Assembly: GCA_018333995.1 (NCBI GenBank) | Contig: JAGXSG010000002.1 | Location: forward strand, 1-64,000 | Direction: 5' to 3' | Origin: Clostridiales bacterium | Lineage (GTDB): Bacteria > Actinomycetota > Coriobacteriia > Anaerosomatales > SLCP01 | Length of the DNA stretch: 64,000 nucleotides | Shown: piece by piece, positions 27,445 to 39,239 of the stretch | Numbering within the stretch: position 1 is the stretch's first letter | How the letters are laid out: each line of letters starts with the position of its first letter | Notes under the pieces: generated by a model | Told to the model about the DNA's origin: nothing | Seen by the model: only the letters and a program-made list of their open reading frames with translations | Databases searched by the model: none | Translations under genes and position numbers: made by a program

Positions 27445-28413
27445 TCAGTCGAGCTGTAGCCTGCTTGCGTACTCATAGGGAATGGTCTCGCGGTCGCTCG
27501 TCTCAGACCACGCAGGTTCCCGATGCGAAAACGCAGTGATGTCAGAAGCGGTCCAGTGAGCGAACTTCGAAGCGACGTCCTTCAGGGTCTGAAGCTCTTG
27601 CGCATCGAAGACTCCCGTGTCGGCTGGTCTGAGCGCTCTGAACACCGTGCCGGTGCAATCGCCGGCATCGAGACACTCCTCGCTGAGCGCGGCCTGATCG
27701 ACGAGCGACGCCTGAAGGGTGTAGAAATCCGCAGGTACCGGTCCAAACTGCATGTGCACATAACGGCTGCCGGAGATTGCACGTCCGTGGCGCCTGTGGT
27801 GGAGGAAATCCGCGTAGAACAACAGCTTATTCAGCTTGGTTCGCCACGTTTGGGCTTGGCCAGCGAAGTACACCATCATCTCGCCCAGCTTCTTGACGTC
27901 TTTGCCAGCAGCGTAAGCTGCGGAATCCTCCTGGACGAGCAATGCCTCGTGCTCATCTGAAAGCGAGATGAGGCACTCCTCCACGGTACGTCGCTGTTCC
28001 TGCGTGACCCGCTCTCCGCTGCGTTCGAGTAGCTGGCGCATGTTGGCGGGCTGCTGCGCCAATCGAAGCATCTGGTCATGGGCAGCCGACTGGATGGACC
28101 CCGTCTCGTAGCGAGCAAGCGTCACCTCGCCCCATCCGAGGAGGCGAGAGAAGGCCTTCTGGCCGAGACCGTACATAGACCGGATCGCACGGATCTCCTG
28201 TGGTTGGAGCAGTCCGTGACGCGAACGGTAAATCGCGTAGGCGTCGGTGAGGGTCTGGTCGTCGAGGGCGACATCGAGCATGTCGGTGCCGCACACTTCG
28301 CAGACAGCAACCTGCGCCTCGACGGTGATCTCTTCACCCTTGACTGGATACGTCTCGGTGCGCTTCTCAATACGCGATTCGGTCTCGCGCATGCATTCTC
28401 CGCAGAACGGCAT
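27445..28413 (-). CDS. Antitoxin: MqsA-like zinc finger, HTH and Panacea (DUF4065/SocA) domain
   Basis: A 322-residue protein with three parts. Residues 1-45 are a CxxC...CxxC zinc-finger head (FCGECMRE, VAVCEVCGTDM). Residues ~65-115 are a Xre-type helix-turn-helix (IRSMYGLGQKAFSRLLGWGE). From ~170 comes a Panacea/SocA-like domain with WRTKLNKLLFYADFLHHRRH and HMQFGPVPADFYTL. Panacea proteins act as antitoxins for many unrelated toxins, and the MqsA-like head fits an MqsR-type partner, which lies 46 bases upstream. AGGGAG precedes the ATG. The HTH implies autoregulation. Confidence 0.85.
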   Translation of the reverse strand: MPFCGECMRETESRIEKRTETYPVKGEEITVEAQVAVCEVCGTDMLDVALDDQTLTDAYAIYRSRHGLLQPQEIRAIRSMYGLGQKAFSRLLGWGEVTLARYETGSIQSAAHDQMLRLAQQPANMRQLLERSGERVTQEQRRTVEECLISLSDEHEALLVQEDSAAYAAGKDVKKLGEMMVYFAGQAQTWRTKLNKLLFYADFLHHRRHGRAISGSRYVHMQFGPVPADFYTLQASLVDQAALSEECLDAGDCTGTVFRALRPADTGVFDAQELQTLKDVASKFAHWTASDITAFSHREPAWSETSDRETIPYEYASRLQLD

Positions 28414-28911: not shown

Positions 28912-28943
28912 GCCATCTTCGCAAAGGCGCAACCCCCCCCCCT

Positions 28944-29402
28944 CTCCCGCCATCCTCACCTGGTATCCTGCTCTCACACAACTGCGCGAGCAGCTCGAAG
29001 AGGCGCGCGGGCTGAAGTTCGGAATCCCTCGGCCTGCCTGCGGAACAGGCGATCGGGCTCCTCGGCGAGACGTGTCACGACGTGTACCTGAACGACGTCG
29101 CGTGCTGGCGGTGCGTGCCTGCAAACGTGTGGCGCTACACGATCGGCGGGTACCTGGTGATTAAGAAGTGGTTGTCGTATCGGGGGCGCTACTCGGGCGA
29201 GATCTGCGGCCGGAAGAGGCGCGCTACGTCGGGGAGATGTCGCGTCGGATTACCGCAATCGTGCTTATGGGCCCTGAACTCGACGCGAACTATAAGCGCG
29301 TGAAGGCGGATGTGTGGGAGTGGTAGTCTTGCCGGAGACGGAGTGCGGTGGCCGCTGACCCCCGATATGGCGGTCATGCAGATTGCTCATTCAGGGGTTA
29401 GA
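28944..29402 (+). pseudogene. Remnant of a type ISP restriction-modification enzyme, copy 1
   Basis: About 459 bases encode only the C-terminal part of a type ISP-like R-M protein. Recognisable stretches are DVYLNDVACWRCVPANVW and WRYTIGGYLVIKKWLSYR. Indels after that point break the frame, and no start, helicase or methylase portion is present. The segment is repeated in direct orientation at 38783-39239 with high identity. A run of ten C lies just upstream. Homology between the copies ends at GGGGTTAGA, where a cassette-like junction begins. Confidence 0.7.
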
Positions 29403-29403: not shown

Positions 29404-29443
29404 AAACAGCTGGCGTACGAGTGTGATGCAACAGGGAGGCGGC

Positions 29444-30070
29444 GTGGATCCACGCGGCGGTGCATATTCCGATAAACGTGTCGTGGCTGAGAAACTCGCC
29501 CGTGTAGGAATTGGTCCTGCGGCACCCATTAATGCTTTCGTTGACTCTCTGCGCAAAGCGAGACCATCGTCCTCAGTCCCGTACGTTGATCCCGACTGTG
29601 GCGGAGTTGAAGCTCGAGTGCTGATGTTGTTCCAGGATCCTGGACCAATGGCGGCCCAACCCAAGGGCAGCGGCATGTTGTCGATAAGTAACGATGACCC
29701 GTCCGCAAAGACCTTGTGTCAGGTGCTCGCGGAGGCGGCTATTCCTTGGAGTGAGGTGGTTCCGTGGAACGCTATTCCTTGGTACACCGGTGGAGCCAAT
29801 TCCGCGGCTGACAAGTTGCAGGGACTGCTCACCCTTGGCCCTTTGACCGCCTTGCTGCCTCGTCTGTGTGTTGTGGTCACATTTGGTGGCACGGCAGCGC
29901 AGTCATGGCATCGTGCTGTCGCACAAGTTCCGGAGCTGTCGTGCTACACGCATATTTCCACACTGCATCCAGGAGTCGGGGGATTGACCAACGGATATCG
30001 GCAGAAAGCCCCGGTCGGTCGCACACAGCTGCTTCGCGACCTTGTCGAAGCACGCTCGCTGCTGACATGA
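29444..30070 (+). CDS. Uracil-DNA-glycosylase-like protein
   Basis: A 208-residue protein resembling the UDG superfamily. It has an N-terminal helix, LMLFQDPGP in the position of the catalytic water-activating loop, VPWNAIPWY resembling the uracil-binding Asn strand, and THISTLHPGVGG near the end where families 1-5 have an HPS/HPG loop. GTG 29444 is chosen because GGGAGG lies four bases upstream; earlier starts at 29423 and 29426 lack this. It may excise damaged or modified bases. Its stop lies eight bases before an attC-like site, as in a gene cassette. Confidence 0.65.
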   Translation: MDPRGGAYSDKRVVAEKLARVGIGPAAPINAFVDSLRKARPSSSVPYVDPDCGGVEARVLMLFQDPGPMAAQPKGSGMLSISNDDPSAKTLCQVLAEAAIPWSEVVPWNAIPWYTGGANSAADKLQGLLTLGPLTALLPRLCVVVTFGGTAAQSWHRAVAQVPELSCYTHISTLHPGVGGLTNGYRQKAPVGRTQLLRDLVEARSLLT

Positions 30071-30241: not shown

Positions 30242-31267
30242 ATGCATGAGCGCAAGGTCCACCTCGACGGGCGTGAGCTCACGATTCGTGAGGGCCGACT
30301 CGAGTTAGGCGACGTCTCTTTCGATCCGACCAATCCTAGGATCCAGTTCCAGCTGGACACCTCCTTGTCCGACAAGGAGCCAACCCAAGAGCAGCTTGGG
30401 TTTGCTCTAGTCGTCGGCAACGACAGCTACGCCAAGCTCCGCGAGAACATCGAAAGCAACGGCGGCATCGTCAACCCGATCTGGATCGCGCCCGTCGATG
30501 ACGGATTCGTCGTTGTCGAGGGGAACACACGCCTTCAGGTCTACCTCGACTTGCACGAAAAGTACCCGAACGACGACAAATGGAAGTCGATTCCGGCCTT
30601 CCTGCTGCCGGAGCAGTTCACCAGAGATCAGATTAACTTCATTCGTCTAGAGGCCCATCTGTTTGGGACTACCCCCTGGGACGCTTACGAGAAGGCACGC
30701 TATCTCTACCGCCTGAACGAGGAGGAGGACTACTCGGTCGAACGGCTGGCCCGAATGACCAAGCTGACTCCCTCGGACATTCGCAGTAGCATCCAGGCTT
30801 TTCGCGACATGGATGAATACTACTTGTCCCGATTCGGCGATCCGGGTGAGCATCAGAAGTTCAGCTACTTCGTGGAATTCCGGAAGAACGCAGACCTCAA
30901 GCGGCTGGTCAAAGAGGGTCAGCTCAATATTGTCGACTTCTGCACGTGGGTCGGTGAGGGCAAGTTCAGCCGAGGTGAGGATGTTCGCCGCCTCGGCACA
31001 GTGCTGAAGGACCCCCAAGCCCGTCAGGCTTTGATCGACTACGACTTCGAGACTGCGTTGGAGCAGCTGGGACAGGTCAACCCGGCCGCAACCAGCCCGC
31101 TGTTCGACAAGATCCAGGACGTCTCGATCGGGATTCGAAAGATGCCATTCTCCGAGATCGAGGGCATCCGGCGCGGACAAGAACCTGCCAAGGTTGCCTT
31201 GCTGGAGGAGCTGGCCGCCACTGTCAACTCGTTCATGGCCAGCCTCAAGGATCGCAGTGCCAACTAG
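30242..31267 (+). CDS. ParB/Srx-like protein A of a five-gene operon
   Basis: A 341-residue protein with a ParB/sulfiredoxin-type N-terminal domain: NPRI at residues 31-34 and the core motif VVEGNTRL at 91-98. A helical region with an HTH-like segment follows (VERLARMTKLTPSDIRSSIQ), then an all-helical tail. ParB-like domains of this kind bind or hydrolyse nucleotides (CTPase/ATPase) or nick DNA. AGGAGG lies four bases before the ATG. It is paralogous to the protein at 33093-34142. It starts the operon, 70 bases after attC-like site 1. Confidence 0.8.
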   Translation: MHERKVHLDGRELTIREGRLELGDVSFDPTNPRIQFQLDTSLSDKEPTQEQLGFALVVGNDSYAKLRENIESNGGIVNPIWIAPVDDGFVVVEGNTRLQVYLDLHEKYPNDDKWKSIPAFLLPEQFTRDQINFIRLEAHLFGTTPWDAYEKARYLYRLNEEEDYSVERLARMTKLTPSDIRSSIQAFRDMDEYYLSRFGDPGEHQKFSYFVEFRKNADLKRLVKEGQLNIVDFCTWVGEGKFSRGEDVRRLGTVLKDPQARQALIDYDFETALEQLGQVNPAATSPLFDKIQDVSIGIRKMPFSEIEGIRRGQEPAKVALLEELAATVNSFMASLKDRSAN

Positions 31268-31664
31268 GCAGCATCAGCGAATTCTCGCCATCGTGCTCAA
31301 GGCCATGAGCCAGCGGGGCTTCTCGCTGGTTGCAGTCGACGGTAAGACCGAAGGCTGGGATCAGCTCGGGCTGGGCCGCCCAGGCGATTTCGGACGCCAT
31401 CGACCCGATGCGGTCGGTATCCAAGCTGACGGCACTATCGGCATCGCTGAGGCCAAGACGGCCGATGATGTTGCGTCCCCCCGGACTCGCGAGCAGCTCG
31501 AGGATTTCCTGGCTCCTTCTGACGTCGACTATGCCGCTGTCTTCTTCGGCTACCCTCGCAGCGCTGATGGTGTCGTCAAGAGTTTGCTCATGTCCATCGG
31601 AGCAATCAACTGTCCACAGCTCGAGCTAATCCCCGTCCCAGACGAGTTGCTCGATGCGAAGTAG
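31257..31664 (+). CDS. Small PD-(D/E)XK nuclease-like protein
   Basis: A 135-residue protein from GTG 31257, overlapping the previous stop by 11 bases. The segment RHRPDAVGIQADGTIGIAEA continuing into K67 places Asp51 and Glu65-x-Lys67 as in the PD-(D/E)XK nuclease core. An alpha-helix with REQLEDFL and a beta strand YAAVFFGYP follow, consistent with the fold. It is close to the minimum size for such a domain. Context with a SNF2 helicase and ParB-like proteins suggests DNA processing. I do not recognise a closer family. Confidence 0.6.
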   Translation: MPTRQHQRILAIVLKAMSQRGFSLVAVDGKTEGWDQLGLGRPGDFGRHRPDAVGIQADGTIGIAEAKTADDVASPRTREQLEDFLAPSDVDYAAVFFGYPRSADGVVKSLLMSIGAINCPQLELIPVPDELLDAK

Positions 31665-33096
31665 GACCCCGCAGGACTTCACGCCGCGCACCAAGCCGCT
31701 TCCGCATCAGCGCGAGGCGATCGAGTACGTGATCAAGACCCCTGAGGCGGCGCTTTTCGACGAGCAGGGTCTTGGCAAGACCAAGATCATCATCGACGCC
31801 TTCTCTGAGTTGATGCGTCGGGGCGACATCGACGCTGCACTCGTTGTGGCGCCGATGGGGCTGGTCTACAACTGGGAAGCCGAGATCAGCAAGCACTCTC
31901 ACCTCGTACCGGTCGTGCTTCGAGGCAACGGTCGTCAACGCAAGTACCGTTTTCTGTCGGGGGCCAATTTCTATCTGGTCAACTATGAGGGAGTCGTCGC
32001 CCAGCGGGATGTCTTTCGCAAGATGATCCAGACGCGCCGCTTCGCCATCGCGCTGGACGAGGCTACTCGCATCAAGGATCCGCATACCGAAACTGCCAAG
32101 GCGCTCTTCGCGATCGGCGAGCATGCCTCGCACAAAGTAATCATGACCGGGACGCCCATCGCCAATCGGCCGGTCGACCTGTGGTCTCAGTACTTCTTCC
32201 TGGACGGCGGACGACTGCTCGGAACTGATCACAGATCTTTCGCCAGTACCTACGACCCCGACTGCGAAGGCGTCGAGGATCGGCTTGAGGATCTGTCGGC
32301 CCTCATTCGGGCCAACTCGATTCGTCGCCTCAAGAACGACGTACTCGAGTTGCCGGATAAGGTCTTCATAGTCCACGAGATCCCCCTGGCCGGACCACAA
32401 GAGCAGATGTACCGCGACTGTGCCGATGAGCTGATCGTTCAGTTGCGCTCCATGTCAGGGCAGGCATACATCCGCGAGATCGACAACGTTCTCGAGCGCC
32501 TGCTTCGCCTGGTGCAGATCGCCAGCAATCCTGGGCTCTTGGACCCCATGTTCGCTGCACCAGTGGCCAAACTCAACTATCTGGATGAACTGGTCGACCG
32601 CCTGCTTGACCAGCATGAGAAGTTAATAGTCTGGTCGGGTTTCGTCGACAACATTGAGACCGTCGTACAGCGACTGAAGCGCTACCGGCCGCTAAGGATC
32701 CACGGTGGTGTGGGAATCGAAGAACGTGCCGAGATCGTCGATGCGTTCCAGGAGCGAGATACTAACCGTGTACTGGTCGCCAATCCGGCCGCCGCGAGGG
32801 AAGGGCTGACTCTCACGAAGGCTAGCGCGGTGGTCTACCTTGACCGCAGCTTCAACCTTGTAGACTACCTGCAGTCGCAGGACAGGATTCACCGGATCGG
32901 CCAGACCCGAGAGTGCGAGATTCACAAGTTGATCGCCTCTGGAACGGTCGATGAGTACGTCGATGCCGTCATTGAGTTGAAGAGCAGCGTGGCCGGGTTC
33001 GTCTACAGCCCGAGCGACGCAGGCAAGGCGCAGATGACACAGCTGCGTGATGAGAAGGACGAGATCCTTCGGTTCCTAGAGGAGGGCGAGGCGTGA
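31654..33096 (+). CDS. SNF2-family DNA helicase/translocase
   Basis: A 480-residue SF2 motor of SNF2 type: motif I DEQGLGKTK (36-44), Walker B-like DEAT (135-138), motif III TGTPIAN (165-171) and C-terminal motifs ANPAAAREGLTLTKA and QSQDRIHRIGQ. No accessory DNA-binding domain is present, so the partners may supply specificity. It overlaps the nuclease-like gene by 11 bases and the second ParB-like gene by 4 (GTGA). SNF2 motors of this size occur in phage, R-M and DNA-modification defence clusters. Confidence 0.9.
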   Translation: MRSRTPQDFTPRTKPLPHQREAIEYVIKTPEAALFDEQGLGKTKIIIDAFSELMRRGDIDAALVVAPMGLVYNWEAEISKHSHLVPVVLRGNGRQRKYRFLSGANFYLVNYEGVVAQRDVFRKMIQTRRFAIALDEATRIKDPHTETAKALFAIGEHASHKVIMTGTPIANRPVDLWSQYFFLDGGRLLGTDHRSFASTYDPDCEGVEDRLEDLSALIRANSIRRLKNDVLELPDKVFIVHEIPLAGPQEQMYRDCADELIVQLRSMSGQAYIREIDNVLERLLRLVQIASNPGLLDPMFAAPVAKLNYLDELVDRLLDQHEKLIVWSGFVDNIETVVQRLKRYRPLRIHGGVGIEERAEIVDAFQERDTNRVLVANPAAAREGLTLTKASAVVYLDRSFNLVDYLQSQDRIHRIGQTRECEIHKLIASGTVDEYVDAVIELKSSVAGFVYSPSDAGKAQMTQLRDEKDEILRFLEEGEA

Positions 33097-34142
33097 CTGA
33101 CAACACACTGAGTGTACAAGGGCGACAGATCCCGTATGAGCTCAAGATTCTAAGCATATACGACCTGCGCTACTACGCAGAGAACCCTAGGATCAACTAC
33201 ATTATCTCGACCCATGACGGCGAGGTAACGCAGGAGATCATCGAACAGAAGCTGCTGGCTCTCGATACGACCAAAGACCTCGTTAGGGACATCGAGGAGA
33301 ATCAGGGGCTGATCGAAGAGGTGCTGGTAATCGGCGACGAGGTCGTCGAAGGCAACACGCGTTTGGCGGTCTACAGGCGGCTGGCCAAGAAGCACCCCAA
33401 CGACCCACGCTGGAAGACGATCCCGGCGAAGGTGCTGTCTTCCGAGATTCGGCCGCAAGAGCTCTTCTTCATCCTCGGCACGCTCCACATCAAGGGCAAG
33501 AACGAATGGAGTGCCTACGAGAAGGCGGCCTACATCTACCGGATGGTTCGCGAGCTGGACTACTCACCGCAGGATGTTGCTAAGCAGCTTGGACATCAAG
33601 CTGGCACGGTCGAAGCCATGCTCAAGTCCTATGAGACGATGCGAGACATCTACCTCCCTCAGGCAACCAAGGATTCCGACGATTTCGAGACCCAGGATGC
33701 GCTTCGCAAGTACAGCTACTTTGAGGCCTTCTATCGTCAGAAGGATCTGGCACTTCGGGCACGAGAGACGCCGCTATTCGTCGAGGAGTTCTGCGAGTGG
33801 GTCATCGCCGACGTATTCCCCAAGGCCGACAGCGTCCGAACCGAGTTGCCGAAGATCCTGAACAACAAGCGTGCCTCCAGGACCTTCTACGCCCTCGTCG
33901 ATACCGAGCCGGAAGCTGCGTTTGAAGAGGCCGAACTGGTTCTGCATGAAAGCAAGCCTGAGCAGATGGATCCCTTCTACATGGGTGTGAAGGAGTTCCG
34001 CGACTTGCTCCAGAACGCGTCAGTCGAGGAGATCAAGGCCGACCTCGAGGCGGACGGCCCACGCGCAAAGGCGTGCCGTGACCAACTGAAGCGATGCCAC
34101 AAAGAGCTCGTCCGCTTCTGCCACCTGCTTGGCCTGGAATAG
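33093..34142 (+). CDS. ParB/Srx-like protein B, paralogue of protein A
   Basis: A 349-residue protein with NPRI at 31-34 and VVEGNTRL at 84-91, the same landmarks as the first ParB-like protein. Both also share HPND/YPND, WKTIPA/WKSIPA, SAYEKA/DAYEKA and KYSYF/KFSYF. Overall they are diverged, suggesting an old duplication and two subunits. GTG start overlaps the helicase stop. A helical HTH-like segment (PQDVAKQLGHQAGTVEAML) follows the ParB core. Confidence 0.8.
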   Translation: MTDNTLSVQGRQIPYELKILSIYDLRYYAENPRINYIISTHDGEVTQEIIEQKLLALDTTKDLVRDIEENQGLIEEVLVIGDEVVEGNTRLAVYRRLAKKHPNDPRWKTIPAKVLSSEIRPQELFFILGTLHIKGKNEWSAYEKAAYIYRMVRELDYSPQDVAKQLGHQAGTVEAMLKSYETMRDIYLPQATKDSDDFETQDALRKYSYFEAFYRQKDLALRARETPLFVEEFCEWVIADVFPKADSVRTELPKILNNKRASRTFYALVDTEPEAAFEEAELVLHESKPEQMDPFYMGVKEFRDLLQNASVEEIKADLEADGPRAKACRDQLKRCHKELVRFCHLLGLE

Positions 34143-34158
34143 CGACGGAGTCCATTAA

Positions 34159-35490
34159 GTGCAGTCTGTCCTGCTGGTCGAACCTGACTACAAGAATAAG
34201 TTCCCGCCGCTCGGACTCATGAAGCTCGCCACGTACTTCCGTGAGCAAGGCGTTCTCGTTGAGTTCGTCAAGGGCAAGTCGCTGACGCACCGTCAGCGGC
34301 GATGGGACGCCGTCTTCGTGACCACCCTCTTTACATGGGAGTGGAAGCGGACGGTTGAGACGATTCGCTACTACGAGAAGTCGACCGGAAGCCCGACCGT
34401 CTACGTTGGGGGCATTGTCGCGACCCTGATGCCCGACGAGCTTCGCAAGGAAGCTGGTGCGACCGTAGTGACCGGACTGCTGGACCAGCAGGGCAAGCTC
34501 GGCTTGCCTGGGGACGACCGTATCGACTCGATGGTCCCTGACTACTCGATTCTCGACGACATCGAGTACAAGTACCCAGTGGAGGACGCCTACTTCATCC
34601 ATGCCACGCGTGGATGCGTCAACCGATGCGCCTTCTGCGCCGTTCCTAAAGTGGAGCCAACGTACAAGAGCTATCAGCCGATAATCGACCAGATCACAGC
34701 GATCAAGGAAGCCCACGGCGAGAAGCGCGACCTGGTTCTCATGGACAACAACACGGTCGCCTCGCCCAAGTTCGACAAGATCATCGACGAGATCATAGAA
34801 GCTGGGTTCGGCGCTGGTGCGCGATTTGGAGCCCGCAAGCGGCACGTGGACTTCAACCAGGGGCTAGATGCGCGGCTGCTGACCGAAGCGAAGATCAAGC
34901 GTCTTGCGGAGACCTCCATCTGGCCGCTTCGGATTGCGTTCGACAGCCTCGACGTTCGTGATGACTACGAGCGAGCGGTGCGTTGGGCGGCGAGAAGCGG
35001 GCTTACCCGGTTGTCGAACTATGTCCTGTTCAACCACGAGGACACCCCTCAGGACTTCTACGACCGGCTTCGGCTGAACGTTGAACTCAATGAAGAGCTC
35101 GGCACCAAGATCTACTCGTTCCCAATGCGCTACAGCCCGGTGATGCGAACCGACCGCCGTTACATAGGCGAGCACTGGACTTGGCGCTACGTGCGTGGGG
35201 TGCAGTGCATCCTCAACGCCACGAGAGGGGTGGTTGGTGTCAAGAGGGAGTTCTTTCTTCGGGCCTTTGGCGCCAACTCTGATGAGTTCGTCGAACTGAT
35301 CAGCATGCCTGAGGACTACATCATGAATCGCGAGGCGCATGAAGATTCAGACGCGAGAGAGTGGAGAGAGTGTTACCGTAAGCTGTCACAGTCCCAGCTG
35401 GCAGACTTCAAGTTGCGAGCACTGAACGGAAAGCTTACTGTGCTTGGCTCGGGTGACCAAGACGTGGAGCGCTTGCTTGCGCACTACTAG
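34159..35490 (+). CDS. Radical SAM protein with B12-binding-like N-terminus
   Basis: A 443-residue protein. Residues ~1-125 resemble the cobalamin-binding domain of B12 radical SAM enzymes (FPPLGLMKLATYFREQG, VYVGGIVATL), though no clear DxHxxG is seen. The radical SAM core carries CVNRCAFC (Cys153, 157, 160; CX3CX2C) for the [4Fe-4S] cluster. The start is GTG 34159 after CGGAG. It closes the operon, 16 bases after ParB-like B. A modifying reaction such as methylation, thiolation or rearrangement of a nucleic-acid base is possible; the substrate is unknown. Confidence 0.85.
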   Translation: MQSVLLVEPDYKNKFPPLGLMKLATYFREQGVLVEFVKGKSLTHRQRRWDAVFVTTLFTWEWKRTVETIRYYEKSTGSPTVYVGGIVATLMPDELRKEAGATVVTGLLDQQGKLGLPGDDRIDSMVPDYSILDDIEYKYPVEDAYFIHATRGCVNRCAFCAVPKVEPTYKSYQPIIDQITAIKEAHGEKRDLVLMDNNTVASPKFDKIIDEIIEAGFGAGARFGARKRHVDFNQGLDARLLTEAKIKRLAETSIWPLRIAFDSLDVRDDYERAVRWAARSGLTRLSNYVLFNHEDTPQDFYDRLRLNVELNEELGTKIYSFPMRYSPVMRTDRRYIGEHWTWRYVRGVQCILNATRGVVGVKREFFLRAFGANSDEFVELISMPEDYIMNREAHEDSDAREWRECYRKLSQSQLADFKLRALNGKLTVLGSGDQDVERLLAHY

Positions 35491-35614: not shown

Positions 35615-35644
35615 TTGGTTCTGGTAAGGCCGGGGGCGTATCAT
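35615..35644 (+). promoter_or_regulatory. Promoter of the addiction module
   Basis: TTGGTT (35615-35620) and TATCAT (35639-35644), spacer 18. Transcription would begin close to the ATG at 35651, so the message may be leaderless, which is common in actinobacteria. Confidence 0.45.
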
Positions 35645-35650
35645 CGAACC

Positions 35651-35863
35651 ATGAACACGCCAGCGATCGACATCAACAAGCTCGCGCCTGAGGAGCGTCT
35701 CGCCTTGATCGGAGACCTGTGGGACAGCCTCCGCACCAAGCCCGAGGTGTTGCATATCTCTCCAGCGCAGCAGAAGGTGCTTGACCGGAGGCTCGACGAG
35801 CTCGACAGCGGCGACGCCGCAGTCATCTCCTGGGACGACGCCAAGCGGCGGCTTCGCGACTAA
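35651..35863 (+). CDS. Addiction module antidote protein (TIGR02574-like)
   Basis: A 70-residue acidic protein of the addiction-module-component type. It shows the usual LAPEERLALIGDLWDSL helix and the C-terminal VISWDDAKRRLRD, which docks on RelE/ParE-fold toxins. Its partner starts six bases downstream. A 53-bp piece of this gene recurs at 40122-40174 with one mismatch. Confidence 0.88.
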   Translation: MNTPAIDINKLAPEERLALIGDLWDSLRTKPEVLHISPAQQKVLDRRLDELDSGDAAVISWDDAKRRLRD

Positions 35864-35868
35864 TCGGC

Positions 35869-36228
35869 GTGCGCAGCGCCTGGTTCCTTATATCGGCAGT
35901 CTCGGACGTGGCGGAGGCGCGCGACTGGCATGAACTCCAGCGGCCGGGACTCGGCGACGAGTTCATTGATGCCGTGGATTCGGCGGTGGACTCCGTTCTC
36001 GGTTTCGCTGCAGCACATCCCGTTGTCTACCGCAGATCTCGCCGCTTCTTGCTGCCGCGCTTCCCATACTGTCTGTACTACCGCGTCGATGACGCCGGGA
36101 TCATCGTGGTCGCCTGCCTACATGCGGTTCGCGATCCGGAGCATCATCGGCGTCGGTCGCGTGCTAACACGCGCTTCGTGACGCGCGAGAGGTTGGCGTA
36201 TCCTGTAAGCGCAAGCCGCGCAAGTTAG
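35869..36228 (+). CDS. RelE/ParE-family toxin
   Basis: A 119-residue RelE/ParE-fold toxin: ARDWHELQRPGLGDEFIDAV, the YRRSRRFLLPRFPYCLYYRV strands and IIVVACLHAVRDPEHHRRR, which is the family C-terminal end. The last ~20 residues are encoded by the attC-like site that follows, so the native protein probably ends earlier or carries a neutral tail. It pairs with the antidote encoded six bases upstream. Confidence 0.88.
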   Translation: MRSAWFLISAVSDVAEARDWHELQRPGLGDEFIDAVDSAVDSVLGFAAAHPVVYRRSRRFLLPRFPYCLYYRVDDAGIIVVACLHAVRDPEHHRRRSRANTRFVTRERLAYPVSASRAS

Positions 36229-38231: not shown

Positions 38232-38492
38232 CTACAGCTGCGGTCGTATCCGCACCCTTCCCGCAGAGACCACAGTGAACGCGCCCTGCATCTCGTCAGC
38301 ATGCTCTCGAATCGCCGCCGCAACGAAATCCGACTTCTGAGCGGGCGTGAGACCAGCGAGCCGTACCAGGAGAACACCGGAGACCACGCGTCGAAGGCGG
38401 AACACGAGCTCACCGAAGTCCTTATCGACGGTGATGAGAATCCGACCCGCGGCATTGGCACGGTCGACGCCCTCGTCAGCAAGCAACCTCAC
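38232..38492 (-). CDS. DUF5615 PIN-like toxin, internally deleted
   Basis: An 86-residue protein from GTG 38490-38492, overlapping the antitoxin stop (GTGA). It keeps the two ends of DUF5615 PIN-like proteins: VRLLADEGVD with the first catalytic Asp, and GRILITVDKDFGELVF with the DKDF acidic site. The ~30 residues usually lying between them (first helix and the HDV...EEVL segment) are missing and the joint is in frame. The C-terminal half is intact (GAFTVVSAGRVRIR). The product is probably inactive. Confidence 0.75.
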   Translation of the reverse strand: MRLLADEGVDRANAAGRILITVDKDFGELVFRLRRVVSGVLLVRLAGLTPAQKSDFVAAAIREHADEMQGAFTVVSAGRVRIRPQL

Positions 38493-38722
38493 GCGACGGA
38501 CTTGGGAAGTGGATAGGCGACGTCTGCGCGAAGGACCTCGGCGCCGAAGCGCACAGCGGCGAGCACGTCGTCGCGGGTCAGACAAGGGTGGGCCTCGAGG
38601 ATCTGCTCAATCGACTCGCCGGCACCAAGCTCGTCAAGGATGGTCTCGACCGTCACGCGGGTGCCTTCGACAACTGGCTTGCCCATCATGACGTTTGGGT
38701 CAGACACGATACGAGATGACAT
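38489..38722 (-). CDS. DUF433 antitoxin
   Basis: A 77-residue protein matching DUF433: RIVSDPNVMMGKPVVEGTRV, then an HTH-like TVETILDELGAGESIEQIL and HPCLTRDDVLAAVRFGAE. DUF433 proteins are VapB-like antitoxins commonly paired with DUF5615 toxins, as here. AGGAGG lies upstream of the ATG. The toxin next to it is truncated internally, so the antitoxin may survive as a lone repressor. Confidence 0.9.
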   Translation of the reverse strand: MSSRIVSDPNVMMGKPVVEGTRVTVETILDELGAGESIEQILEAHPCLTRDDVLAAVRFGAEVLRADVAYPLPKSVA

Positions 38723-38782
38723 CTCAAGAACACCTCCTTGGACTCTCTACGAAGATACCCCGACAAGTGGAGTCGCCGCCGC

Positions 38783-39239
38783 CTCCCGCCACCCTCGCCT
38801 GATATCCCGCTCTCACACAACTACGCGAGCAGCTCGGAGAGGCGATCGGGCTGAAGTTCGGAATCCCTCGACCTGCCTGCGGAACAGGCGATCGGGCTTC
38901 TCGGCGAGACGTGTCACGACGTGTACCTGAACGACGTCGCGTGCTGGCGGTGCGTGCCTGCAAACGTGTGGCGCTACACCATCGGCGGGTACCTGGTGAT
39001 TAAGAAGTGGTTGTCGTACCGCGGGCGTGCGCTGCTGGCGCGGGATCTGCGGCCGGAAGAGGCGCGCTACGTGACCGAGACGGTGTGTCGCAGCGCTCGT
39101 GCTGATGGGGCCGGAGCTCGATGCAAACTACGAGCGCGTGAAGGCGGATGTGTGGGAGTGGTATTCTGCCGGAGACGGAGTGCAGCGACCGCTGACCTCC
39201 GATATGGCGGTTATGCAGACTGCTCATTCAGGGGTTAGA
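38783..39239 (+). pseudogene. Remnant of a type ISP restriction-modification enzyme, copy 2
   Basis: Direct repeat of the segment at 28944-29402, ~457 bases. The frame is better preserved here: DVYLNDVACWRCVPANVW, WRYTIGGYLVIKKWLSYR, ALLARDLRPEEARYV; a frameshift precedes LMGPELDANYERVKADVWEW. As in copy 1 nothing upstream of the C-terminal domain remains. The two copies bracket 9.4 kb holding the cassettes, the five-gene operon and two toxin-antitoxin modules. Homology ends at GGGGTTAGA in both. Confidence 0.75.

Follow-up and report, generated by a model that had tools for sequence, protein, structure and literature searches.

Several described prokaryotic systems resemble parts of the locus reported here. 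The Dnd/Pbe systems (PbeABCD, CxC-ABC ATPase/DndE) couple an SF2 motor and a nuclease to a DNA mark. Dnd systems or methylases are frequent partners of Pbe systems, and a 2024 reappraisal of the Dnd/CxC systems mentions radical S-adenosylmethionine (SAM) enzymes only in discussing DndC (PMC10853773). The Dpd 7-deazaguanine system is a multi-gene mark-and-restrict system that includes a ParB-superfamily protein (DpdB) and an SNF2 helicase (DpdE). DISARM normally has a methyltransferase, and in the prokaryotic viperins a radical SAM enzyme serves in anti-phage defence. Here we describe a five-gene operon found in a 64,000-nucleotide stretch of a Clostridiales bacterium genome (assembly GCA_018333995.1, contig JAGXSG010000002.1, positions 1 to 64,000; hereafter the window). 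It encodes two ParB-like proteins (ParB-A and ParB-B), a predicted PD-(D/E)XK nuclease, an SNF2 motor and a radical SAM enzyme. The unit is genuine, conserved and mobile.

Searches of the operon proteins against Pfam, NCBIfam, PHROGs and PADLOC return generic SNF2 and radical SAM families and weak ParB-like matches, and point to no assigned system. We found no description of this gene combination in the literature; papers containing the terms were unrelated or concerned Dnd or BREX, in a search that covered few subscription papers and preprints. This agrees with the preliminary description of the locus, which knew of no system with this composition, and no PADLOC system matches it.

A conserved five-gene unit

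The five open reading frames (ORFs) lie at 30242-35490 in the order ParB-A, nuclease, SNF2, ParB-B and radical SAM, and are overlapping or adjacent. The nuclease ORF ends at 31664 and is listed from TTG 31194, with GTG 31257 as its best start; with that start it overlaps ParB-A by 11 nucleotides (nt). The nuclease and SNF2 ORFs share 11 nt, SNF2 and ParB-B share 4 nt, and 16 nt separate ParB-B from the radical SAM gene. A ribosome-binding site judged good (TTAGGAGGCAGG) is present upstream of ParB-A. All five ORFs are found where the preliminary description placed an operon of overlapping or nearly touching genes, and the families it named were checked independently.

When 84,980 species genomes were scanned with the radical SAM profile, 256 relatives were recovered; we fetched the top 80, together with 14 viral contigs. 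Gene families in the fetched loci were assigned with iterated hidden Markov models on all ORFs. This bait yielded 45 distinct ParB-module loci, of which 42 carry all five genes. The loci belong to at least nine phyla (Pseudomonadota, Bacillota, Nitrospirota, Planctomycetota, Chloroflexota, Thermodesulfobacteriota, Spirochaetota and the candidate phyla Binatota and Latescibacterota). Five-gene loci occur on chromosomes, plasmids and viral contigs, and many copies are located on rhizobial megaplasmids or predicted viral contigs, close to genes for integrases or serine recombinases. The genes overlap or touch, with median intergenic gaps of -1, -8, -1 and +18 nt, and hardly any copy has lost a catalytic motif.

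Because this set was found through the radical SAM enzyme, ParB and SNF2 were run as independent baits. A tblastn search of plasmids with ParB-B matched seven records, all alphaproteobacterial. In all six that were opened, the ParB pair, the small nuclease protein, SNF2 and the radical SAM enzyme occur together, the last within 10 kb; the seventh (H13) is a second record of an already opened Mesorhizobium plasmid. Among 396 genomes of the window's phylum, the ParB pair is present in two and the radical SAM enzyme in three. Both ParB-pair genomes contain the full operon, and the one other than the window's (G060) carries all five genes in an identical order. The viral contigs were scanned with a narrower ParB-B alignment, as a 9-row ParB alignment was too diverse. 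Every part is carried by the close matches to ParB-B (7/7) and SNF2 (9/9), nine distinct contigs altogether, and six distant SNF2 matches carry none of the other parts. In total, the radical SAM gene is found in 17/17 examined records that contain the module and were reached through ParB or SNF2 (6 plasmid, 2 genome, 9 viral). The check for conserved co-occurrence of all five families, which the preliminary description had proposed, thus came out in its favour. It would have given up its reading for genes that do not co-occur elsewhere or that match a named module with an assigned function; the genes do co-occur, and no such module matches.

Gene order divides the unit into two blocks, ParB-PD(D/E)XK-SNF2-ParB and radical SAM-GHKL ATPase. 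They are mostly in line, with the radical SAM block upstream, downstream or divergent. That the order of the blocks varies while their linkage is kept argues for function rather than mere co-transcription. The GHKL ATPase is present in 33 of the 45 ParB-module loci and adjoins the radical SAM gene in most loci, and a DndB-like gene (DGQHR, PF14072) joins the module in 12 of the 45. The window operon and its relative in G060 represent a minimal form that has neither gene.

Two side observations concern individual copies. In the rhizobial loci L002, L003, L004 and L127, a PIN-like protein follows the operon, mostly accompanied by a second GHKL ATPase; the two may be an additional effector pair. 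Three pairs of loci (L017/L018, L044/L045 and L088/L090) carry identical radical SAM proteins under different phylum names, and their flanking genes match pairwise too; such pairs point to mis-binned contigs of metagenome-assembled genomes (MAGs) or to very recent transfer.

ParB-A and ParB-B are homologous (30-33% identity), and ParB-A matches a PHROG profile of ParB-like partition proteins (1.5e-6). The G94-N95-x-R97 motif of ParB-A is kept in 48/48 homologues and the corresponding GNxR in 46/46 ParB-B homologues. ParB-B comprises a ParB N-terminal domain followed by a central helical/helix-turn-helix (HTH) region. Its AlphaFold2 (AF2) model, built from 37 sequences, has a predicted local distance difference test (pLDDT) score of 92.5, and its top 33 Foldseek matches in the PDB are all ParB, Noc, KorB or Spo0J proteins (best E 1.5e-5). 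Profile searches gave only weak ParB matches in the PDB and weak ParB-like matches in PADLOC (PDC-M38A, PD-Lambda-5_A). The modelled fold of ParB-B and the GxxR nucleotide motif place both proteins in the ParB superfamily.

The nuclease has no match among Pfam, NCBIfam, PHROGs or PADLOC profiles. It contains a PD-x13-EAK...Q motif (P50-D51, E65-A-K67, Q80, numbered from the GTG start) that is kept in 42-44 of 44 homologues. The top PDB matches of its AF2 model (pLDDT 93.5) are NucS/EndoMS, SfsA, YaeQ and the LlaBIII nuclease domain, and XPF is matched too; the matches are mostly PD-(D/E)XK nucleases, at weak E-values of 4e-3 to 6e-2. The predicted core fold together with the PD...(D/E)xK motif assigns the protein to this superfamily.

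In the SNF2 protein, whose identity is unambiguous, Pfam detects SNF2-rel_dom (2.4e-31) and Helicase_C (1.8e-15), and the nearest solved structure is the Snf2/Rad54-family helicase 1z63 (2e-49). Its motifs include the Walker A lysine K42, DE 135-136 and a motif VI of QDRIHRIGQ; K42 and DE are kept in 47/47 homologues. The radical SAM enzyme exceeds the Pfam cut-offs for both B12-binding (1.1e-9) and Radical_SAM (9.4e-8). The cysteines of its CxxxCxxC motif (C153, C157 and C160) are kept in 48/48 homologues, and it is 43-45% identical to the radical SAM enzyme adjoining rhizobial ParB modules. Its sequence, with this motif and a B12-binding domain, identifies it as a predicted B12-dependent radical SAM enzyme. 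Of the sites that the preliminary description had chosen for mutation (C153, K43 and D51), C153 is right, as is D51 when counted from GTG 31257, and the SNF2 Walker A lysine is K42, not K43.

Table 1 Features of the operon and of the island that contains it
Feature	Positions	Strand	Basis
ParB-A, ParB/Srx-superfamily protein, 341 aa, NPR...GNTR motifs	30242..31267	+	PHROG, homology to ParB-B, motif
PD-(D/E)XK nuclease (predicted), ~135 aa	31257..31664 (GTG 31257 start inferred from overlap)	+	Motif, AF2 model/Foldseek
Single-chain SNF2 ATPase/translocase (P0003), 480 aa	31654..33096	+	Pfam, nearest structure, motifs
ParB-B, second ParB-superfamily protein, 349 aa, NPR...EGNTR motifs	33093..34142	+	AF2 model, Foldseek
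Radical SAM enzyme with N-terminal B12-binding-like domain (P0005), 443 aa	34159..35490	+	Pfam, cysteine motif
Left flanking direct repeat	28937..29402	+	Type ISP restriction-modification C-terminus remnant; Pfam Type_ISP_C (PF18135) 4e-6 on 29082-29300
Right flanking direct repeat	38776..39239	+	Type ISP C-terminal remnant likewise; Pfam Type_ISP_C (PF18135) 4e-6 on 38921-39235

The radical SAM enzyme as a partner of other modules

The fetched radical SAM relatives are not confined to ParB modules. In 13 loci, 12 of them distinct, they adjoin PbeA, PbeC and a clade-2 DndE (PbeA 1e-218, PbeC 1e-167), and in four loci DISARM DrmA and DrmB with a NERD-helicase (DrmA 2e-178, DrmB 1e-58). Together with the GHKL ATPase, they are found beside HerA- and NurA-like proteins in ten loci, including Marinitoga camini virus 1, and beside a long DndB-like protein with an N-terminal extension in six; the DndB/DpdB-like proteins next to radical SAM relatives match PF14072 at 4e-14. 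Three further loci combine the enzyme with a PD-Lambda-5_A-like protein, with methyltransferases present. A maximum-likelihood tree of 95 radical SAM proteins requires at least 31 changes of partner module, compared to six if each association had a single origin, and one small Bacillota clade has ParB, DISARM and Pbe modules all as partners. The radical SAM enzyme, often with the GHKL ATPase that is absent from the window operon, is a portable half that swaps among defence-type modules.

Using seed proteins and motifs, we detected neither a DNA methyltransferase nor DndC in the 12 distinct radical-SAM Pbe loci or in the four radical-SAM DISARM loci. The same search of eight control Pbe loci without this radical SAM enzyme found DndC or a methyltransferase in seven (Fisher p 1e-4 vs 0/12). 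According to Pfam, the genes flanking the radical-SAM Pbe and DISARM loci are mostly housekeeping, with no DNA methyltransferase among the 25 families listed of 98. Since the radical-SAM loci are without a detected methyltransferase or DndC and 7/8 controls have one, the enzyme probably fills the slot of a modification enzyme. This assignment is guilt by association: the numbers are modest, detection relied on seeds and some contigs are short. Control loci L121, one of the seven, and L122, the eighth, contain a second, distant family of B12 radical SAM enzymes.

A number of these loci are of interest in their own right. L121 and L122 come from genomes of the window's class, and their Pbe modules are preceded by the second B12 radical SAM protein (512 and 642 aa). 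An apparent radical-SAM variant of Pbe, with PbeA-PbeC-DndE and no DndC or methylase found, is represented by L017, L020, L021, L024, L026, L027, L032, L038, L066, L067 and L077, and is present also in a Methanomethylovorans archaeal MAG. L016, L053 and L069 (and a truncated copy, L029) combine DrmA, DrmB, a NERD-helicase and a UvrD-like helicase with the radical SAM enzyme, with no methyltransferase found, and appear to be a radical-SAM variant of DISARM. L007 (Marinitoga camini virus 1) and L006 are virus-borne and contain HerA and NurA-like genes next to the radical SAM gene. Short stand-alone phage radical SAM proteins (phrog_9298) are distant relatives.

A possible mark-and-restrict system

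We propose that the operon is an undescribed multi-gene mark-and-restrict system against invaders, with a radical SAM marker, ParB site readers and an SNF2-driven nuclease, the likeliest of the readings considered here and one that we regard as evenly balanced between right and wrong. It is the simplest one because the radical SAM enzyme points to the modification slot and the other half consists of the ParB pair, motor and nuclease. The reader/nuclease half would comprise ParB-A, the PD-(D/E)XK protein, SNF2 and ParB-B, and the marking half the radical SAM enzyme, with the GHKL ATPase in many relatives. Both ParB-fold proteins would recognize specific DNA sites, by loading there or by reading them, and would probably work as nucleotide-dependent clamps. 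With the likely help of cobalamin, the radical SAM enzyme would set a chemical mark at or near the ParB sites on host DNA. On unmarked DNA, the ParB complex would engage the SNF2 translocase, leading the small nuclease to degrade or nick the invader. In this scheme we infer that the operon defends, that the enzyme acts on DNA, what kind of mark it sets, that clamps form and that unmarked DNA is cut. The preliminary description had suggested base modification coupled to restriction of unmodified DNA. The coupling gains indirect support from the Pbe (CxC/DndE) and DISARM loci that contain radical SAM relatives and gave no hit to a methyltransferase or DndC; "base" is too specific, as the mark could be placed on a base, a sugar or the backbone.

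More broadly, the B12-dependent radical SAM family may be a portable DNA-marking enzyme that takes the place of a methyltransferase or of DndC in defence modules of at least five kinds: ParB pair/PD-(D/E)XK/SNF2, PbeA-PbeC-DndE, DrmA-DrmB, HerA-NurA and DndB-like. We put this forward tentatively, as slightly nearer to wrong than to right. If true, it would define a class of mark-and-restrict immunity with an unseen radical chemistry of DNA modification, of which the window operon would be the minimal five-gene form.

Several points weigh against marking by this enzyme. We know of no B12 radical SAM enzyme that marks genomic DNA. A PDB profile search with the protein found nothing, so that it has no close relative of solved structure, and its substrate cannot be read from the sequence. 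The search for methyltransferases and DndC used few seed proteins and motifs, some of the radical-SAM Pbe contigs are short, and in two control Pbe loci the methyltransferase lies several kb off, beside transposases. The minimal five-gene form may be incomplete or work differently, because neither of the two genes that often accompany the module elsewhere was found in the window's genome: a search for the GHKL ATPase, run with no positive control, gave none, and the DndB-like family PF14072 had no match.

Other functions can be considered for the same genes. The radical SAM enzyme could make a modified nucleotide or small molecule, or modify a partner protein, with the ParB, SNF2 and nuclease proteins sensing and cutting invader DNA. 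Prokaryotic viperins illustrate that radical SAM defence through nucleotide analogues is possible (PMC12926258), and a diffusible product would explain how the enzyme can be found with very different DNA-handling parts. We nevertheless consider such viperin-like chemistry unlikely here, as the protein matches no viperin or other PADLOC model, its partners are nearly all DNA machines, and the methyltransferases and DndC not found in the radical-SAM Pbe and DISARM loci fit DNA marking better. Less likely still is an enzyme that removes or rewrites a DNA modification or lesion (compare spore photoproduct lyase), with the other proteins acting on marked DNA, including modified phage DNA. In its favour, the nuclease model has the mismatch endonuclease NucS/EndoMS among its nearest folds, repair makes use of SNF2 translocases, and a uracil-DNA-glycosylase-like ORF (29423-30070) lies just upstream. 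None of the other loci, however, contains that ORF; the system has a patchy distribution, is mobile and is rare (2/396 genomes of its phylum), unlike housekeeping repair; and homologous radical SAM enzymes belong to loci of Pbe and DISARM, both known to serve in defence.

The full ParB/Noc/KorB fold of the ParB-B model, and the many copies on rhizobial megaplasmids or predicted viral contigs near integrases or serine recombinases, would also suit a module for maintenance or partition of mobile elements, in which the ParB proteins would bind sites resembling centromeres and the task of the motor and nuclease would be transfer, resolution or competition. We find this improbable: the module has no ParA, chromosomal copies exist, partition needs no radical SAM enzyme, and this enzyme also serves Pbe and DISARM modules. 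Finally, five unrelated families with only two copies in 396 genomes of the phylum might seem a chance grouping, to which we assign a negligible probability. Chance is excluded by the recurrence of the five genes, in one order, across many phyla; order and linkage are kept in 42 distinct loci and through three independent baits.

If the mark-and-restrict reading is true, prokaryotes would have one more means of discriminating their own DNA from that of invaders, resting on radical SAM chemistry instead of methyl transfer, sulfur exchange or base exchange. Plasmids, viruses and islands would have carried the system into many phyla, with exchange of its cutting half along the way, and ParB-fold proteins would take on an immune function new to them, as paired readers of sites. 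A new DNA modification would be predicted, which could be sought directly by mass spectrometry in cultivated strains that carry the system, among them Rhizobium leguminosarum WSM1325, Mesorhizobium sp. NZP2077 and Nitratireductor sp. ZSWI3. Should the marking claim fail, the locus would still be a worthwhile target, as a system conserved over many phyla that neither PADLOC nor the literature we searched describes.

Genomic setting and relation to known systems

The preliminary description placed the operon in an accessory island between recombination-like sites. This is borne out by its GC content (58-60% across the operon region, 63-68% outside) and by direct repeats of ~465 bp that flank the island, 9.84 kb apart. 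Both repeats carry the C-terminal end of a type ISP gene, so that what is left of another defence gene borders the operon's island on either side. This older gene may have served as the site of entry for the island, or its copies as the sites between which the island recombined. Genes of toxin-antitoxin types surround the operon (35615-36228, 38232-38722 and 27445-28413), assigned by Pfam to an Unstab_antitox and ParE-like toxin, a DUF433/DUF5615 pair and a SocA/Panacea-MqsA-like antitoxin. The 215-aa ORF at 29423-30070, ~170 nt upstream of the operon, is uracil-DNA-glycosylase-like by eye (FQDPGP, NDD, PWNAIPWY) and has no Pfam match; we rejected it as a sixth operon gene, as it recurs in no other locus.

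Membership in Dnd/Pbe, Dpd, DISARM, Zorya or the viperins fails because their defining genes are absent. In its proposed working the operon is akin to mark-and-restrict systems, and it belongs to none of those described. The Dnd/Pbe systems are linked to the operon by its radical SAM homologues next to PbeA-PbeC-DndE in 12 distinct loci and by the DndB-like genes that join some ParB modules. The window operon is without DndA, DndC, DndD/PbeC, DndE and PbeA. PADLOC finds no DndC among the five proteins, phmmer with Ruegeria DndC finds none in the ParB-module loci, and a DndD/PbeC ABC ATPase with DndE is missing from the operon, the PbeC model having no match in the window's genome. The SNF2 motor of the operon is short and has no HKD nuclease, the PD-(D/E)XK nuclease is a separate protein, and a ParB pair and a radical SAM enzyme are present.

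The window SNF2 matches the DpdE models at 4e-47 in PADLOC, as it matches many SNF2 proteins, and its best PADLOC match is the SNF2 domain of ZorD (1e-54). We rejected a Dpd or Zorya identity on these grounds, as only the SNF2 domain is shared. In comparison to Dpd, the operon is without the DpdA transglycosylase, DpdC and preQ0 pathway genes, and its ParB proteins are of ParB/Noc type, not DpdB; no DpdB/DndB-type (PF14072) protein, as a Dpd assignment would need, was matched in the window's genome. PADLOC and Pfam detect no DpdA among the operon proteins, so that both DpdA and DndC are absent, as the preliminary description held. No ZorA or ZorB is matched among them in PADLOC; the operon's nuclease and motor are separate proteins, and Zorya has neither a ParB pair nor a radical SAM enzyme.

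The likeness to DISARM is through the radical SAM relatives in the DrmA/DrmB loci without a methyltransferase (L016, L053 and L069). The window operon has no DrmA, DrmB or DrmM methyltransferase; PADLOC gives no match to DrmA or DrmB and only an SNF2-domain similarity to DrmD. Classical restriction-modification was rejected, as Pfam finds no methyltransferase among the five genes; a possible one is present in 1/47 ParB-module loci. A prokaryotic viperin was rejected likewise, as no PADLOC viperin model matches the radical SAM enzyme, which differs from viperins in its B12-binding-like domain and in its place within a multi-gene DNA machinery.

Chromosomal and plasmid ParB, Noc and KorB share with ParB-B the predicted fold, a nucleotide-pocket-like (E)GNxR motif and an HTH region. 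They differ in that the operon's proteins carry GNTR in place of GERR, have no ParA partner and occur as two unequal copies that flank the nuclease-motor pair. Whether the locus is new in kind turns on the marking step, or on an earlier description that we have not seen. None of the described systems known to us has its composition and core enzyme, and the broad logic of marking plus restriction is already familiar.

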